Positions 7,543 to 58,537 of a stretch of DNA of 64,000 bases are shown one piece after another; the first letter of the stretch is position 1; each line of letters starts with the position of its first letter. The stretch covers positions 1 to 64,000 of the forward strand of contig NZ_CAJVAP010000012.1 in assembly GCF_910593785.1 (NCBI RefSeq), written 5' to 3'. Under the pieces are notes generated by a model, which was not told where the DNA came from, did not search any database, and saw nothing but the letters and a program-made list of their open reading frames with translations. The DNA comes from Leucobacter soli. Its GTDB lineage: Bacteria > Actinomycetota > Actinomycetes > Actinomycetales > Microbacteriaceae. A program made the position numbers and the translations under genes.

Positions 7543-9741
7543 GTGGCAACCCTCGACTTCATCGACGACATCACGCTCGACGAGCTGGAAGACGATCCGT
7601 ACCCCCGCTACGCGCAGCTGCGGGAGCATGCACCGGTCGCCTGGATCCCCGCGGCAGACGCCTGGTTCGTCACCAGCTTCGACGCCTGCGCCGAGGTGGG
7701 CGAGGGCAAGTACGGCATGGCCGGCGCGCAGAACCACCCCACCCTGCAGCGCGTCTTCGGCACGCCGAACGTGCTCACCTCCGGCGGCGACACGCACACC
7801 GACCTGCGGAAGGGCATCGATCCCAAGCTGCAGCCCACGCCGGTGAACGACATGGTCGACTCGCTCGTCCGCCCGATCGCGCGCGACTACCTCTCGCGGC
7901 TCGACGGACAGACTTCCGGCGAGCTCATGTCGGCGTACTTCGAACCGGTGAGCGTGGACTCGCTCCGCACCGTCATGGGACTCGACGGCTACGTCGATTC
8001 CGACACCCTGCGCCGCTGGTTCCGCGACCTGAACCTCGGCGTCGCGAACTTCGGCCTCGACCCCGACAGCTTCGCGATCGCCGACCGGGCCTCGACCGAG
8101 ATCGAGGAGGTCGTCCGCCCCCTGCTCGAGCAGCTGCGCCGGACTCCCGACGACTCGATGCTCTCGCACATGCTGTGGGCCGGGCGCGAAGGCGGGGAGC
8201 CGAGGCCCGTCGAGCTCATCATGCCCTCGCTCAAGGTGATCCTGCTCGGCGGCATGCAGGAGCCGGGGCACGCCGCGGGCAGCACGCTGATGGGCCTCTT
8301 CGGCGAGCCGGAGCAGTGGCAGAAGCTCGTCGACGACCCCGACGAGTACATCCCCCTCGCGGTGCACGAGGGCATGCGCTGGATCGCACCGATCGGCGCC
8401 GTCGAGCGCATGGCGACCCGCGACGTCGAGCTCTACGGTCAGAAGATCCCGGCGGGCAGCATGGTCGAAGTCGTGCTCGGCTCCGCCAACCGCGACGCCA
8501 GCCGCTTCGACGAGCCCGACCGCTTCGACATGGAGCGCACGGGACGCGTCAACCAGGCCTTCGGCAACGGCGAGCACTTCTGCGCCGGCCACTTCTTCGC
8601 CCGGCAGGTCCAGCGGATCATGTTCGAGGAGCTGGTGCCGGCGCTGCCCGGGCTCCGCCCCGACCCCGACGCGTCCCCCTCGGTCACGGGCTGGGTGTTC
8701 CGGGCGCCGAAGACGATGCCGGCGCGCTGGGACGCGACGGCTCCCGCGCGCGAGTCGGCGATCCTGACCGCCGCCGCAGGCGACGCCCCGGCACTGGGCA
8801 TCCCGGACACCTGGCAGGCCCGCGTCGTCGCCATGCGGCAGGAGGCCGACGGCGTGCTCTCGATCGACCTGGCAGCCGCCGACGGCACCCCGCTGCCCGC
8901 CTGGGAGCCGGGCGCCCACATCGACCTCTGGCCGACCGCCGAGCGCGCCGGACAGTACTCTCTGTGCGGCGACCCCGCCGACCGCTCCGTCTACCGCATC
9001 GCGGTGCTCCGCGGCCACGAGCACGGCGGCGTCTCGCAGTTCGTCCACGACCGCCTGCGCGTCGGCGACACGATCACGGCCGGAGGGCCCCGCAACCACT
9101 TCGAGCTGGCGCACGCGCCGCGGATCATGCTGCTCGCCGGCGGCATCGGCGTCACGCCGATCCTGCCGATGGCGCGTGCGGCGGTCGCCGCGGGAGCCGA
9201 CGTCTCGATCTCCTACTGCGGGCGCAACGCCGCGAGCATGGCCTTCGTGGGCGAACTCGGCGAGACCGGCGCGCGACTCGAACTGCATGTCTCGGAAGAC
9301 GGGAACCGCCTGGATCTCCCCGCGCTCGTCGCGGAGGCCGCCGAGAGCGGCGCGTCGATCTACGCGTGCGGGCCGGAGCGGATGCTCGGCGAACTCGAAC
9401 TGCTCGCCGAGCGCACGGGCGCCCACGCCGTCTTCGAGCGCTTCAGCGGCGTGGAAGCGCATCGGGAGGGCGATCGCCCCTTCACGATCGCGCTGGGCCG
9501 CAGCGGCGGCGAGGTCGAGGTCGGCGCCGACGAGACCGCGATCGAGGTGCTGCACCGCGAAGGGTTCGACATCCGCTTCTCGTGCCGCGAGGGAAACTGC
9601 GGCTCCTGCGAGACCGGCGTGATCGAGGGCGAGGTGGAGCACCGCGACGTGATACTCACGAAATCGCAGCGGGCGAAGAACGACCGCATGATGGTCTGCG
9701 TCTCTCGCGCACGGTGCGAGCGGCTGACACTCGACCTCTGA
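7543..9741 (+). CDS. Self-sufficient cytochrome P450: GcoA-like heme domain fused to FAD/NAD/2Fe-2S reductase
   Basis: 732 residues from GTG at 7543, with a GGAAAGGGG ribosome binding site. Residues 1-390 form a P450 resembling guaiacol O-demethylase GcoA (CYP255A). The heme ligand is Cys347 in FGNGEHFCAG. The I-helix is LLGGMQEPGH (Glu240-Pro241), lacking the usual acid-threonine pair. Residues 420-732 form a phthalate-dioxygenase-reductase-like module: flavin motif GQYSLC, nucleotide loop GGIGVTPILPM, and a plant-type 2Fe-2S centre with Cys681, 686, 689 and 719 (C-x4-C-x2-C-x29-C). The reductase order matches CYP116B-type fusions, but the heme domain looks GcoA-like, and GcoB itself has its iron-sulfur domain first. 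Electrons would pass NAD(P)H-flavin-2Fe-2S-heme within one chain. Aryl O-demethylation is the likely reaction; the substrate is unknown. Confidence 0.9.
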   Translation: MATLDFIDDITLDELEDDPYPRYAQLREHAPVAWIPAADAWFVTSFDACAEVGEGKYGMAGAQNHPTLQRVFGTPNVLTSGGDTHTDLRKGIDPKLQPTPVNDMVDSLVRPIARDYLSRLDGQTSGELMSAYFEPVSVDSLRTVMGLDGYVDSDTLRRWFRDLNLGVANFGLDPDSFAIADRASTEIEEVVRPLLEQLRRTPDDSMLSHMLWAGREGGEPRPVELIMPSLKVILLGGMQEPGHAAGSTLMGLFGEPEQWQKLVDDPDEYIPLAVHEGMRWIAPIGAVERMATRDVELYGQKIPAGSMVEVVLGSANRDASRFDEPDRFDMERTGRVNQAFGNGEHFCAGHFFARQVQRIMFEELVPALPGLRPDPDASPSVTGWVFRAPKTMPARWDATAPARESAILTAAAGDAPALGIPDTWQARVVAMRQEADGVLSIDLAAADGTPLPAWEPGAHIDLWPTAERAGQYSLCGDPADRSVYRIAVLRGHEHGGVSQFVHDRLRVGDTITAGGPRNHFELAHAPRIMLLAGGIGVTPILPMARAAVAAGADVSISYCGRNAASMAFVGELGETGARLELHVSEDGNRLDLPALVAEAAESGASIYACGPERMLGELELLAERTGAHAVFERFSGVEAHREGDRPFTIALGRSGGEVEVGADETAIEVLHREGFDIRFSCREGNCGSCETGVIEGEVEHRDVILTKSQRAKNDRMMVCVSRARCERLTLDL

Positions 9742-31955: not shown

Positions 31956-33275
31956 TCATCGCGCCAGGGAGAAGCCCTTCAGATCGAACGATTCGTCTGC
32001 CGCATCCGCCGCGGTCAGTCGCAGACCTCCGGCGAGGATCCTGCGCGCAGCCAGATGATCGGCGGGGCGATTGACGGACTCCACCGCCTGCAGCCCGGCG
32101 TCGGTGAAGCTGAACACCGAGAACCTCCCCGTGCTCGGGTCGCCCCGGACGACGGTCTCGCCGGCAGGCGCGACCAGCCCGGCGATCTGCAGCTTCGCGC
32201 CGCCCTGCTGGGACCAGAACCAGGGCACCTCGGTATACGCGGCTACCGCGGGCGTTGGCACTATCGGCGCCGGCACCGTCGACGCCGATGCCGACGTCGG
32301 CGGACCCTCCCACCGGGACGGATCGACGAGCGCCCGCGCGAGGTACCGCGCCTGCCCCGTCGCGTTCTGCACCGATTCCACGCGGGTCCGCCTCGCCCCG
32401 CCCTCGACCGGGAACGCCGCGCAGTCGCCGATCGCGAAGATCCGCGGGTCCGCGGTCCGGAGCTCAGCATCCACCACGATGCCGCCCGCGACCTCGAGCC
32501 CGGCGGCCGCGGCGAGCTCGCTCCGGGGTTCGACTCCGACCGCGACGAGCACCAGATCGGCGTCGTATCGGCGGCCGGCGAGCGTCACCACCGATGCCCC
32601 TCGCCCCTCGGTCCGGGGTTCGAACCGCGCGATCTCCTCGTGGTCGACGAGCCGCGTGCCGAGCCCCCGGTGGAGCTCGCGGAGGTACTGCTCGACGGGC
32701 GGGGTCACCGACCGGCGCAGGACCCGCGGACCGCGGCCGAGCACCGTGACCTCAATGCCGAGGGACCGCGCCGCGGCGGCGAATTCGAGCCCGATGAAGC
32801 CGGCGCCGATGACGACGACGCTGCGCGCCGCCGCGAGCCGGGCATGGATCGCGGCCGCATCGGCCAGCGTCCGCAACTGGACGACCCCGTCGATCCGGCA
32901 CCCCGGCACCTCGAGGGCGCGGTTCTCGGCTCCGGTCGCGAGGATCAGCCGGTCGTAGCGCAGTCCGGTGCTGCGGTGCTCGTCGCCGTCGAGACGCACC
33001 GTGCGGGCTGCTCGGTCGATCTCCGTCACGCGGCAGCGCCGGAGGTGGTCGATCCGCTGCTCGGCGAAGAACTCCGGCCCGCGGAGCGGCAGCGGCTCCA
33101 GCCGGCCGCCGCCGGAGAGCTCCTTGGAGAGCGGCGGCTTCTGGTACGGATGGTCGGGGTCCTCACCGACGAGGGTGATCGCTCCGACCCATCCCTCGGT
33201 GCGCAGGGAGTCGGCGAGCTGCACCCCAGCATGCCCGTCGCCGACGATCACGATCCGTTCCTGCTCTGCGGGCAT
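31956..33275 (-). CDS. FAD-dependent ferredoxin reductase (putidaredoxin-reductase type)
   Basis: 439 residues. FAD-binding Rossmann motif IVIVGDGHAGVQLAD at the N-terminus, NAD-binding VVVIGAGFIGLEFA near residue 160 and the FAD-contacting IFAIGDCAAFP near residue 300 are intact; the C-terminal reductase domain contains EVPWFWSQQGG. Such proteins pass electrons from NADH to 2Fe-2S ferredoxins serving P450s or dioxygenases. It begins 3 bases after the ferredoxin frame, in a P450-ferredoxin-reductase operon. An Ala/Ser/Pro/Thr-rich insertion lies around residues 325-345. Confidence 0.93.
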   Translation of the reverse strand: MPAEQERIVIVGDGHAGVQLADSLRTEGWVGAITLVGEDPDHPYQKPPLSKELSGGGRLEPLPLRGPEFFAEQRIDHLRRCRVTEIDRAARTVRLDGDEHRSTGLRYDRLILATGAENRALEVPGCRIDGVVQLRTLADAAAIHARLAAARSVVVIGAGFIGLEFAAAARSLGIEVTVLGRGPRVLRRSVTPPVEQYLRELHRGLGTRLVDHEEIARFEPRTEGRGASVVTLAGRRYDADLVLVAVGVEPRSELAAAAGLEVAGGIVVDAELRTADPRIFAIGDCAAFPVEGGARRTRVESVQNATGQARYLARALVDPSRWEGPPTSASASTVPAPIVPTPAVAAYTEVPWFWSQQGGAKLQIAGLVAPAGETVVRGDPSTGRFSVFSFTDAGLQAVESVNRPADHLAARRILAGGLRLTAADAADESFDLKGFSLAR

Positions 33276-33278
33276 GGC

Positions 33279-33602
33279 TCAGATCTGGCTCTCGGGCAGC
33301 GTGACCTCGATGCGCGCGACCTCGGGTCCGGCGAACAGCTGGCAGCCGAGCCGCGAATTCGGCAGTCGGTCCTCCGACGTGCAGTCGAGCATCTCGTCTT
33401 CGTCCTCGCCGACCTCGGGCGGATCCGCCCCCGCGTAGCGATCGACGTAGACATGGCACGTGGCGCACATCGCCTGCCCGCCGCACTCCCCCACGATGCC
33501 GGGCACGCCGTTCGTGACCGCCGCTCACATCACGGACATGCCGGCGGCGGCCTCCTCCTGGCGGACGCCGCCGTCGGGCTGGGTGAAGATGATGGTCGTC
33601 AT
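33279..33602 (-). pseudogene. Putidaredoxin-type 2Fe-2S ferredoxin interrupted by in-frame TGA
   Basis: Reading from ATG at 33602 (GAAAGGAT upstream) gives MTTIIFTQPDGG...GMSVM, then TGA at 33527-33525 (codon 26), and in the same frame AAVTNGVPGIVGECGGQAMCATCHVYVD to a stop at 33279. Apart from that codon the 107-residue ferredoxin is intact: the cluster ligands are the three Cys in CGGQAMCATC (C-x5-C-x2-C) and the later Cys in SRLGC. Relatives have Glu or Arg where the TGA falls, so a CGA-to-TGA transition is a likely origin. Restart at the GTG at 33506 would lose the first two strands of the fold. Alternatives are a sequencing error or stop readthrough. It lies between the P450 and its reductase. 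Confidence 0.8.
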
Positions 33603-33616
33603 GAGGATCCTTTCGT

Positions 33617-34849
33617 TCAGAGGAGCACCGGCAGGCGGCGGGGCGACCGGAAGTGCCAGCCGGTGACGGGGATCTCGGCGCCCGGTTCCAGGCGGAGATC
33701 CGGCGCCGCGACCAGGAGCTCCTCGAGCGCGACGCGCATGATCGCCCGCCCGAAGGCGTTGCCCGCGCACACGTGCATGCCGCCGCCGAACGCGATGTGG
33801 CGGCGGTTCTCGCGGTCGATGTCGAAGCGCTCGGGGTCCGCGAACTGCGCCGGATCGCGGTTGGCGGCGCTCAGCATGAGGTAGACCGCGTCACCGGGCT
33901 GCAGGCGAACTCCGCCCAGCTCGGTCTCCTCGACGACCTGCCGTTCGGTATGCCCGATCGGCGAGATCCAGCGGATCCCCTCCTCGACGGCACGCAGCAC
34001 CAGGGCGGGGTCCTCGCGCACGCGCTGCAGCTGCTCGGGCTCGACGAGCAGGCCGTACATCGCCGAGGCGCAGCCGTGCCCGGGCTCCTGCATCCCGCCC
34101 GTGATGTAGACGGCGAGGGTCGGCAGGATCTCCTCCAGCGTCCGCGGATCCCCCGCGTCGCGCCCGCCGTGGATCATGTGCGAGAGCGCCGTGTCGTCGG
34201 GTTCGCCGCGCAGACGCTCGACCATCGGCGCGACGACGCGGGCGATGTCCGCTCGCGTCGCGTCGGAACGGGCGAACCCGGCCTCGGCGAGCGACTCGTT
34301 CGTGAGCCCCGAGACCATTCCGGCGAACCAGTCGCGCAGGGTGTCGTCGTCGATCTCCTGCAGCCCGAGCAGGTCGCCGAGACAGCGGACGCTGATCGGC
34401 TCGAAGTACTCGGCCACCAGATCGGCCGAAGCGCGTTCCAGCAGACGCTCCAGTCGACGTTTCACGACCGGTCGGATCACGGACTCGAGGTGGTCCCGGA
34501 CCACCCGGGGGCGCAGGGGTCCGTCGACGGCCCGCCGGAGGCCCCTGTGCAGTTCGCCGTTGGAGGCGAGGATCGTCGGCGTCCCGAACACCCGATCGCC
34601 CCGGGCGCGACCGAGACCGCCCTCGAGCCCGGTGAAGCGCTCGGGGTGCAGGAGGACGCGCTCGCAATCCTCCCAGCGGGTGACGAGGTAGGCGCCCAAC
34701 GGCTCGTACCAGTGGAGCGGAGCCTCCTGCCGGAGCCGATCGAAGATCGGGTAGGGGTCGCGGGTCAGGTCGTGCTCGTTGACGGCTTCGGCGAGCGGGC
34801 GATCCGGGTCGCTCGCAGAAGAGACCGCCGCGACGGGCGCAAGGGACAT
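33617..34849 (-). CDS. Cytochrome P450, GcoA (CYP255A)-like
   Basis: 410 residues. Heme-ligand Cys361 in FGGGMHVCAG; ExxR-type pair in EEGIRW; the I-helix reads TGGMQEPGHG with Glu255-Pro256 in place of the usual acid-threonine pair, as in GcoA-like P450s. EPISVRCLGDLLGLQ and DDDTLRDWF are also shared with GcoA and with the two other P450s here. First gene of the P450-ferredoxin-reductase operon (14 bases to the ferredoxin), so a class I three-component system. Because the ferredoxin frame is broken, activity would need another ferredoxin. A 40-base palindrome lies 14 bases upstream of its ATG. Probable aryl ether O-demethylase; substrate unknown. Confidence 0.9.
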   Translation of the reverse strand: MSLAPVAAVSSASDPDRPLAEAVNEHDLTRDPYPIFDRLRQEAPLHWYEPLGAYLVTRWEDCERVLLHPERFTGLEGGLGRARGDRVFGTPTILASNGELHRGLRRAVDGPLRPRVVRDHLESVIRPVVKRRLERLLERASADLVAEYFEPISVRCLGDLLGLQEIDDDTLRDWFAGMVSGLTNESLAEAGFARSDATRADIARVVAPMVERLRGEPDDTALSHMIHGGRDAGDPRTLEEILPTLAVYITGGMQEPGHGCASAMYGLLVEPEQLQRVREDPALVLRAVEEGIRWISPIGHTERQVVEETELGGVRLQPGDAVYLMLSAANRDPAQFADPERFDIDRENRRHIAFGGGMHVCAGNAFGRAIMRVALEELLVAAPDLRLEPGAEIPVTGWHFRSPRRLPVLL

Positions 34850-57570: not shown

Positions 57571-58077
57571 TTACGGCGCCGAGATGCGATCCGCTTCGTC
57601 CGCCGGCAGTCCGACGACCCGGAGGTCCGCCAGCGGGGTGCCGTGCTGGTACGGGCCGAAGAACAGCATGGCGCCGTCCTCCGTGAGCGTGACGCCCGTG
57701 CCCAGGAGCACGGCGGACGGATGCCCGGCAGGGTCCGTCTCCAGCCGCTCGACCCGGGCGAACACGATGCGGACGCCCGACTCCGGCGCCTCGTCGGGGT
57801 CGGCGATCGAGAGGAACCAGCCGTCGGCGTCGCGCTGGAGCGCGGGTGAGGCGATCGGCAGGTCGAGCATCCCGCCGTGCCCGCGGAGGTGCACGTTCCC
57901 CGCGAAGCTCAGGCGTTCAGGGACGGACTCGGCGAGGCCGAACGCGAAGAGGCCGGGCTCCGGCTCCGTCGCGCCGTCGGCCGGGATGGCGGTGCCCCCG
58001 GCGCTGCCGCGGACGTAGGCGACGAGCGATTCCTTGACGGCCCAGGTCAGCGAGGGCGTCTCCCTCCCCGGGTTCAT
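57571..58077 (-). CDS. Cytoplasmic single HtaA-domain protein (heme-binding type)
   Basis: 168 residues with the HtaA pattern: LTWAVKESLVAYV near the N-terminus, DGAT, GLFAF, then FAGNVHLRGHGGMLDLPIASP and, near the C-terminus, LTEDGAMLFFGPYQHGTPL. In Corynebacterium, HtaA domains bind heme through a conserved Tyr (the position of Tyr in SLVAYV) with a nearby His (GHGG), both present. Normal HtaA proteins are secreted and membrane-anchored with several domains; this one has one domain and no signal or membrane segment. It lies one base after the flavodoxin, last in a P450-reductase-flavodoxin operon. Heme delivery to the P450 or heme sensing are possible roles. Confidence 0.8.
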   Translation of the reverse strand: MNPGRETPSLTWAVKESLVAYVRGSAGGTAIPADGATEPEPGLFAFGLAESVPERLSFAGNVHLRGHGGMLDLPIASPALQRDADGWFLSIADPDEAPESGVRIVFARVERLETDPAGHPSAVLLGTGVTLTEDGAMLFFGPYQHGTPLADLRVVGLPADEADRISAP

Positions 58078-58078
58078 G

Positions 58079-58537
58079 TCAGGGCGTCGGCGCCAGCAGG
58101 AGCGCCAGCTTCTCGTTCAGCCACGCCTGCGCCGTCTCCGAGGGGTCGCCGTCCTCGGAGGCATCGTGCCGGCCGATGTCCCCTATCCGTTCCGCGCCGT
58201 GGCGCTGCAGCTCCTGGTCGAGCGTCTCGATGCCGAGTCCGTAGCTGTACACGTAGTCGGAGTCCCCCAGGCCGAAAGCCAGGTAGCGCAGGCCGCCCAG
58301 AGCCGGGGTCTCCTCCTTGAGCCGACGATAGAACGGGTAGGCGCTCTTCGGCAGCTCTCCGTCGCCGTAGGTCGAGCTCACGACGAGATGCAGGTGCGCC
58401 GGGTCGAGCCCGGCAGGGTCGGTGTCGGCGAGGTCCGCGACGGCGACCTCGTGATCGTCCCGCAGCGCTGCGGCGAGGTCTTCGGCGACCATCTCGCTGT
58501 TCCCGGACTCCGTGCCGTACAGAATGGTGATCATCAT
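58079..58537 (-). CDS. Flavodoxin (cindoxin-like P450 redox partner)
   Basis: 152 residues from ATG at 58537, overlapping the reductase stop (ATGA). FMN phosphate loop LYGTESGNSEMVAEDL, second FMN loop SSTYGDGELPKSAYPF and the third LAFGLGDSDYVYSYG are intact. Shuttles one electron at a time from the reductase to the P450, replacing a ferredoxin, as cindoxin does for P450cin. Confidence 0.93.
   Translation of the reverse strand: MMITILYGTESGNSEMVAEDLAAALRDDHEVAVADLADTDPAGLDPAHLHLVVSSTYGDGELPKSAYPFYRRLKEETPALGGLRYLAFGLGDSDYVYSYGLGIETLDQELQRHGAERIGDIGRHDASEDGDPSETAQAWLNEKLALLLAPTP

Follow-up and report, generated by a model that had tools for sequence, protein, structure and literature searches.

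What would a heme-capture domain do inside a bacterial cell, encoded in the operon of a cytochrome P450? In the parts of the literature drawn on here (PMC12494546, PMC8027190), HtaA domains are spoken of as surface, secreted or uptake-linked proteins. In the window, that is, the whole stretch of 64,000 nucleotides of Leucobacter soli DNA that was analysed (contig NZ_CAJVAP010000012.1 of assembly GCF_910593785.1), the initial annotation pointed to one such domain standing as a bare protein beside a P450 and a flavodoxin, and suggested that it might serve as a heme chaperone or reservoir for loading the P450. We confirmed the observation itself, and found this interpretation to be partly supported and the recurrence of the pairing in other genomes to be largely borne out.

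The P450 operon of Leucobacter soli

On the minus strand, the P450 gene is followed by those of an FprA-type reductase, a flavodoxin and HtaA (Table 1). The P450 and reductase genes overlap by 4 bases, as do the reductase and flavodoxin genes, and a single base separates the flavodoxin stop from the HtaA start, so that the gene coordinates agree with the close spacing first described. The interval first annotated, 57571-58537, covers HtaA and flavodoxin together. The PucR-type gene is a possible operon member or regulator, and the LuxR-type gene a possible regulator of the P450 operon.

Table 1. Genes of the P450 operon and its flanks in the window
Feature	Position	Strand	Evidence and remarks
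PucR-type regulator, directly downstream of HtaA	56335..57549	-	HTH_30 + GGDEF_2; start possibly 57507
HtaA single-domain protein, 168 aa, cytoplasmic by sequence	57571..58077	-	PF04213 63.5 bits; AlphaFold2 model
Flavodoxin, 152 aa	58079..58537	-	Flavodoxin_1 6.8e-25
FprA / adrenodoxin-reductase type NADPH reductase, 476 aa	58534..59964	-	Pyr_redox_2; best solved match FprA 1lqt 9.9e-47
Cytochrome P450, 397 aa	59961..61154	-	PF00067 9.2e-17; heme Cys motif FGYGEHFCAG
LuxR-type regulator, upstream of P450	61342..63147	-	GerE 3e-14

Among the solved chains compared, the nearest to the operon's P450 was 8u09 (1.2e-81), followed by the aromatic O-demethylase GcoA (5ncb, 2.1e-66). GcoA's own partner is GcoB, whereas the P450 of the window is accompanied by an FprA-type reductase, a flavodoxin and HtaA. 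Genes in the neighbourhood encode a protein weakly like HpaD and catechol 2,3-dioxygenase, an HsaA-like monooxygenase and glyoxalase-fold proteins, and because of them the region looks like one of aromatic catabolism. Two other P450s are encoded in the window, neither with HtaA alongside. One (7543-9741, plus strand) forms a single protein of 732 aa together with an NAD-binding reductase part and a 2Fe-2S domain, and the other (33617-34849) lies with a 2Fe-2S ferredoxin and a reductase on the minus strand (31956-34849).

The source genome contains a ferrochelatase, and thus makes its own heme, which rules out a heme auxotrophy requiring a carrier; a heme oxygenase is present as well. No HmuTUV genes were found around the HtaA gene of the window, and the genome's HtaA-HmuTU locus is on a separate contig (C37).

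Family, fold and predicted heme site

The HtaA profile match that had been expected was obtained (PF04213, E 4.4e-17, 63.5 bits against a cut-off of 24), with residues 9-153 of 168 aligned to profile positions 3-162 of 164. The AlphaFold2 model (mean pLDDT 94) has the CR-domain fold and matched ChtA (Z 17.0, rmsd 2.8 A, 148 residues aligned), the C-terminal domain of C. glutamicum HtaA (Z 16.5, 3.2 A, 145 aligned) and HtaB (Z 15.7, 3.3 A, 147 aligned). The best 10 rows of this comparison with solved structures were all Corynebacterium CR domains or the HbpA relative; VIA-align rows at Z of about 5 and below carry no kinship information.

In the hemin complexes of C. diphtheriae, as described in the part of PMC12494546 used here, the axial Tyr lies in helix 1 with a Ser four residues earlier; the beta6-beta7 loop contributes a helper His or Tyr, and the alpha2-beta11 loop a further Tyr. 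Model and alignment place the equivalents in the window HtaA at S17, Y21 (axial), H67 (helper) and Y143 (propionate), Y21 and H67 answering to the conserved Tyr and His that had been recognized at the outset. The same site recurs among 71 soluble HtaA proteins compared at identities down to about 25-30%, with the axial Tyr and the propionate Tyr in 71/71, the helper His in 68/71 and the Ser in 62/71. Invariant columns in a 54-row alignment were only Y21, G60, G69 and Y143. In the three exceptions (L229:6459-6986, L211:233-682 and L042:7386-7823) the helper His is replaced by Tyr, as in ChtA, in two proteins and by Phe in one. A full-length profile match, the CR fold and the Ser/Tyr/His/Tyr set thus all mark the protein as a member of the CR family, and we strongly infer that it binds heme. 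A chance or degenerate HtaA match is ruled out by the profile score, the heme-site residues and the fold.

Since the HtaA domain begins at residue 9, there is no space for a signal peptide, and the claimed lack of an export signal was upheld. In the model, the 15 residues past the domain form a short helix that carries charges and nothing hydrophobic. Judged by its sequence, the protein is cytoplasmic. It shares family, fold and the Ser, axial Tyr, helper His and propionate Tyr with the CR domains of Corynebacterium HtaA, HtaB and ChtA. Those proteins are exported or held at the surface, and HmuTUV genes accompany theirs, whereas the window HtaA is a bare domain in a P450 operon, has no sequence feature of export or membrane anchoring and no HmuTUV genes beside it, and is placed elsewhere in the family tree. 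A role as a heme-uptake component is ruled out by the missing export signal and transporter genes and by the uptake locus elsewhere in the genome.

Soluble HtaA and P450 genes across genomes

Profile searches for HtaA in the family of the source organism, Microbacteriaceae, gave matches in at least 112 of 299 and at least 161 of 398 genomes. DNA stretches were taken around the listed matches, some of them stopping at contig ends; 120 stretches, including 12 picked for P450s or reductases (L098-L109), gave 119 HtaA ORFs. Genes and export signals were called with custom simple scripts rather than standard programs. A first sorting yielded 56 soluble single-domain ORFs and 63 others, and the final set, after corrections and with the window HtaA included, comprised 59 HtaA in the soluble class and 60 that are secreted or multidomain. 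L039 (one domain split in two matches), L054 (wrong start) and L167 (a hydrophobic N-terminus resembling a wrong start) were moved by hand to the soluble class with their P450 neighbours already known, and L201, a soluble ORF without a P450, was removed as a truncated gene call.

Among the matches listed, a P450 gene lay within the stretch (at most 5.6 kb away) for 33/59 soluble HtaA versus 0/60 secreted or multidomain ones, and heme-uptake genes (HmuT or FecCD-type) were near 0/59 and 48/60, respectively. When L054 and L167 were kept among the others, the P450 counts became 31/57 and 2/62. Profile A1 had been built from ten HtaA selected for a nearby P450; without these ten seeds a P450 was near 23/49 soluble HtaA versus 0/60 (Fisher 2.5e-10). 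Because genomes hold few P450s (0 to 7), chance would bring one near only about 0.7 of 59 soluble HtaA, in an estimate for which P450s per genome were merged by eye and whose 59 genes include G973 and omit G1057 (32 with a P450 near). Related species contribute rows that do not count as independent, and a safer count is that of P450 clusters at 40% identity: the 38 HtaA-P450 pairs, seven of them from plasmids, fall into 14, and all their P450s have the heme Cys motif. The co-occurrence with P450 operons in other genomes that had been anticipated is therefore frequent, and profile score, fold and recurring pairing indicate that the association is more than chance.

A P450 was absent from the stretch of 26/59 soluble HtaA. 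Six soluble HtaA have a P450 about 6-12 kb off (G227, G091, G178, G212, G194, G1010), which in G227 is the genome's only one, and a soluble HtaA is present in G1004 and G1029, two genomes lacking any P450. Several recurrent settings were seen here. In L040, L041, L172 and L174, the soluble HtaA gene stands before a TetR gene and behind the genes of a short-chain dehydrogenase and of a protein of 208-222 aa weakly like carboxymuconolactone decarboxylase, with two P450s at a distance of 10-19 kb. In L111, L178, L179, L189, L195, L166 and L176, all from genomes of 1.6-1.8 Mb with one or two P450s and none within the stretch, the surroundings are housekeeping genes, in some cases chorismate mutase and purA. 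In L050, L051, L207, L208 and L209, a cydA-like gene is found some 2 kb from the soluble HtaA but in a separate run, and in two of the genomes concerned a P450 is lacking.

Phylum-wide searches with profiles A1 and A2 gave a match in at least 15 of 396 and at least 18 of 376 genomes. At eight loci outside the family (L269-L276) an HtaA gene was called in seven, all with a hydrophobic N-terminus, and none in L275. Soluble HtaA may be missed phylum-wide, because about ten candidates were scored per genome, and the plasmid records suggest the same. A scan of genome contigs with a single HtaA protein gave 138 pattern matches, none of which was confirmed.

Eleven of 12 matching plasmid records were examined (12 places; CP136442 was left out). 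Soluble HtaA was found on plasmids of Rhodococcus, Mycolicibacterium, Arthrobacter, Paenarthrobacter, Pseudarthrobacter and Citricoccus, and also of Microbacterium from within the family, with an annotated P450 in the stretch at 7/12 places. In R. erythropolis R138, a P450, a 2Fe-2S protein, a reductase and HtaA form one tight run. On two Rhodococcus plasmids (L227:4362-6941, L234:4374-6944) HtaA comes right after a Rieske-type dioxygenase and a VanB-type reductase, so that non-heme partners adjoin it and the P450 is farther along; on a Mycolicibacterium plasmid it stands behind acyl-CoA dehydrogenases with no P450 within the stretch. The tie to P450s is thus strong but not exclusive, because plasmid HtaA also occurs with Rieske and acyl-CoA genes. 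On the Citricoccus plasmid (NZ_CP039425; L233, L236), a 303-aa ORF is P450-like by profile and maybe a fragment; the record's incomplete gene table lists no P450 there.

P450s and redox partners

The redox partners of HtaA-linked P450s are diverse. A separate reductase, flavodoxin and P450 are found in the window and in L045, L153 and L154. At 14 HtaA loci (L035-L039, L117, L147-L149, L151, L155-L157, L159) the three parts are joined, in the order P450-FprA-flavodoxin, in one protein of about 1,000 aa; a LysR-size regulator gene directly adjoins HtaA in 8 of these 14. L116 carries a fusion in another order, FprA-flavodoxin-P450, which suggests more than one origin of the fusion. We know of no description of the three-part P450-FprA-flavodoxin architecture in the literature. 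Fusion coordinates are L035:8744-11788, L036:2812-5805, L038:8639-11677 and L117:2567-5575, with others in L098-L101, and L116:6778-9738 for the other order.

Other partner P450s sit with ferredoxins of 2Fe-2S and small 4Fe-4S type: a 2Fe-2S ferredoxin and reductase in L042, a small ferredoxin, a reductase and a LysR gene in L110, L165 and L175, and a ferredoxin in L232. The initial annotation had envisaged HtaA genes next to P450-flavodoxin pairs; the link to the P450 held and the specificity for flavodoxin did not, the ferredoxin-associated P450s ruling out a flavodoxin-specific partner. As flavodoxin with FprA, two kinds of fusion and ferredoxins alternate, the P450 is the common factor. 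In seven loci (L045, L052, L116, L152, L153, L154, L159) the HtaA gene overlaps the P450 gene itself.

The association was also approached from the P450 side. A search of 174 family genomes gave five full-length fusions, three with HtaA (G033, G049 and G020, that is, L035, L036 and L117) and two without HtaA nearby (G014 and G096, that is, L308 and L307); around four fusions outside the family (L098-L101) HtaA was nearby in 0/4. An HtaA ORF was sought in 25 P450-side loci, separate P450/FprA/flavodoxin sets among them, and none was found; these negatives include the second such set of the source genome (L107, G000:C3:78000-93000). By eye, about 32 of 79 P450s are accompanied by HtaA in 28 HtaA-bearing genomes. 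Of two features expected of a dedicated chaperone, linkage to the client gene was thus found, and regular accompaniment of the client was not. Since fusions and P450 sets also occur without it, HtaA is an accessory, and an obligatory P450 subunit is ruled out by the HtaA-free fusions and P450-side loci. Another kind of P450/FprA/flavodoxin set occurs in L106, L107, L311, L313, L316, L317 and L319, in each case without HtaA; those of L106 and L107 adjoin similar genes, some of them amidotransferase-like as judged by eye.

Evolution

In an 82-row HtaA tree, whose bootstrap had not settled, the 11 secreted domains form a single clade (100/100) separate from all soluble ones, the label "P450-linked" requires 12 changes as compared with 27.5 when labels are shuffled, and the window HtaA belongs to a 12-row group (99/92) whose remaining members accompany the P450-FprA-flavodoxin fusion. 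Between the window and the L035 fusion, identity is 29% for the P450, 44% for the reductase and 50% for the flavodoxin. HtaA has thus been kept with a redox set and a different P450, which suggests either a tolerance of the exact P450 or, in this clade, a tie to the redox set. HtaA and P450 divergence are correlated overall (Mantel r 0.66, 0/5000 permutations), with weak agreement across P450 families (r 0.15 for P450s less than 40% identical).

Proposed role of the soluble HtaA

Because the pairing recurs with many unrelated P450s, HtaA may serve the enzyme as a dedicated aid in the handling of its heme. In the mechanism that we propose, the window HtaA would bind ferric heme through the axial tyrosinate of Y21, hydrogen-bonded by H67, and act as a heme carrier for the P450 of its own operon. 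It would hold heme in an exchangeable and harmless form and pass it to freshly synthesized apo-P450, filling the enzyme quickly once the operon is switched on; perhaps it also retrieves heme from the P450. HtaA would be an optional aid in this, not a subunit needed by every such P450. We put forward this reading of the window HtaA, a cytoplasmic Tyr-ligated carrier that optionally loads its operon's P450, tentatively, at slightly under an even prospect. Extended to the class, the reading is still more tentative, although quite conceivable: soluble HtaA would be dedicated cytoplasmic heme chaperones that load, and perhaps unload, many unrelated bacterial P450s, a capture domain known from outside cells working inside them, often with one HtaA per P450 operon.

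An exchange of heme between HtaA and a P450 is plausible, because the DtHtaA of Dietzia takes heme b from a cytochrome P450 in vitro, as well as from catalase and lignin peroxidase and not from cytochrome c (PMC8027190, in the part used here). This is the only HtaA-P450 exchange known from that source, and its direction, from P450 to HtaA, is the unloading one, which makes salvage a serious rival. HtaA would then not load apo-P450 but mainly collect or buffer heme released from P450 that uncoupled peroxide or misfolding has inactivated; the cell would be protected, and the heme either given back or handed on to heme oxygenase. A hemin KD of about 22 nM for a ChtA CR domain (given in the part of PMC12494546 drawn on here) and a source genome with a heme oxygenase and its own heme synthesis would suit such a role. 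Yet a sink needs no copy per P450 operon, and that is what some genomes have: in G1058 three soluble HtaA adjoin three different P450s of its four, and G1041 and G089 have two soluble HtaA-P450 pairs each. One HtaA per P450 operon speaks against a general heme store, for which one copy suffices, and most other hemoprotein genes, in an unsystematic look, are without HtaA. We consider salvage unlikely as the main role.

Regulator genes are frequent next to HtaA, with 11 LysR and 5 TetR among 93 direct-neighbour proteins (91 of 95 listed neighbours plus two from the window), many overlapping HtaA by 4-7 bases, besides a PadR in L163, a GntR in L236 and the PucR-type gene after HtaA in the window. 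HtaA might accordingly sense the heme or redox state and modulate the transcription regulator of the operon. The regulator families vary from locus to locus, however, while the P450 is constant, and it is the P450 gene that HtaA overlaps in the seven loci named above; a regulatory role appears improbable.

More improbable again is that HtaA is a heme enzyme of its own, removing peroxide from uncoupling or acting on a pathway intermediate. The high-spin, five-coordinate tyrosinate heme of CR domains (in the part of PMC12494546 consulted) would be compatible with catalysis, and soluble HtaA also occurs in oxidative catabolic operons with Rieske or acyl-CoA dehydrogenase genes and no directly adjoining P450, but no catalytic distal residue can be named among the few invariant positions of the 54-row alignment. 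That HtaA carries a hydrophobic substrate instead of heme, for which its presence in catabolic clusters and a weak fold likeness to lipocalin-type carriers might be invoked (Z under 5 and hence not evidence of kinship), is hardly credible, the axial Tyr and propionate Tyr being kept in all, and the helper His in nearly all, of the 71 soluble HtaA compared, across P450s whose substrates must differ.

Relation to known heme carriers

A precedent for the loading role proposed here is Cj1386 of Campylobacter jejuni, a cytoplasmic protein that binds one heme through Tyr57 and serves the catalase KatA (PMC11442138, in the part available). It would exemplify the proposed mode of action, a cytoplasmic Tyr-ligated donor with one named client, and is likened to the window HtaA by function alone, since its client is a catalase and that part of the source claims no HtaA fold for it. 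Heme trafficking inside bacteria is called "not self-evident" there, and the few bacterial cytoplasmic proteins named for it are HemW, Cj1386, CgdH2 and HtpA (PMC11442138). HemW and HtpA/TANGO2 are cytoplasmic heme carriers, as we propose for HtaA, but they belong to other families (HemW being of radical-SAM type), have several clients and weak affinity, and show no tie to P450 operons in the portion of the review used here. The human P450s CYP3A4 and CYP2D6 have heme allocated to their apo-forms by GAPDH and Hsp90 (PMC10840333, likewise in part), which unlike HtaA are general eukaryotic proteins, not P450-specific, and unrelated to it.

Searches of a set of open-access papers, judged by title, abstract and, for PMC12494546, PMC10060970, PMC8027190, PMC11442138 and PMC10840333, by parts of the text, brought up no description of a P450-linked or cytoplasmic HtaA and none of a chaperone role of HtaA. 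If proved, the function would be new, with a PF04213 member working outside the heme-uptake system. An external heme-capture domain appears to have been kept as an internal protein, with its predicted heme site intact and in a region of the family tree apart from the secreted domains.

We know of no earlier bacterial heme-insertion factor dedicated to P450s; if the proposal is true, HtaA would be, as far as we are aware, the first. The delivery of heme to bacterial apo-P450s has been little studied, and a small, conserved and P450-linked predicted heme binder makes the question directly testable. A possible use would be to raise the fraction of active P450 in production strains.
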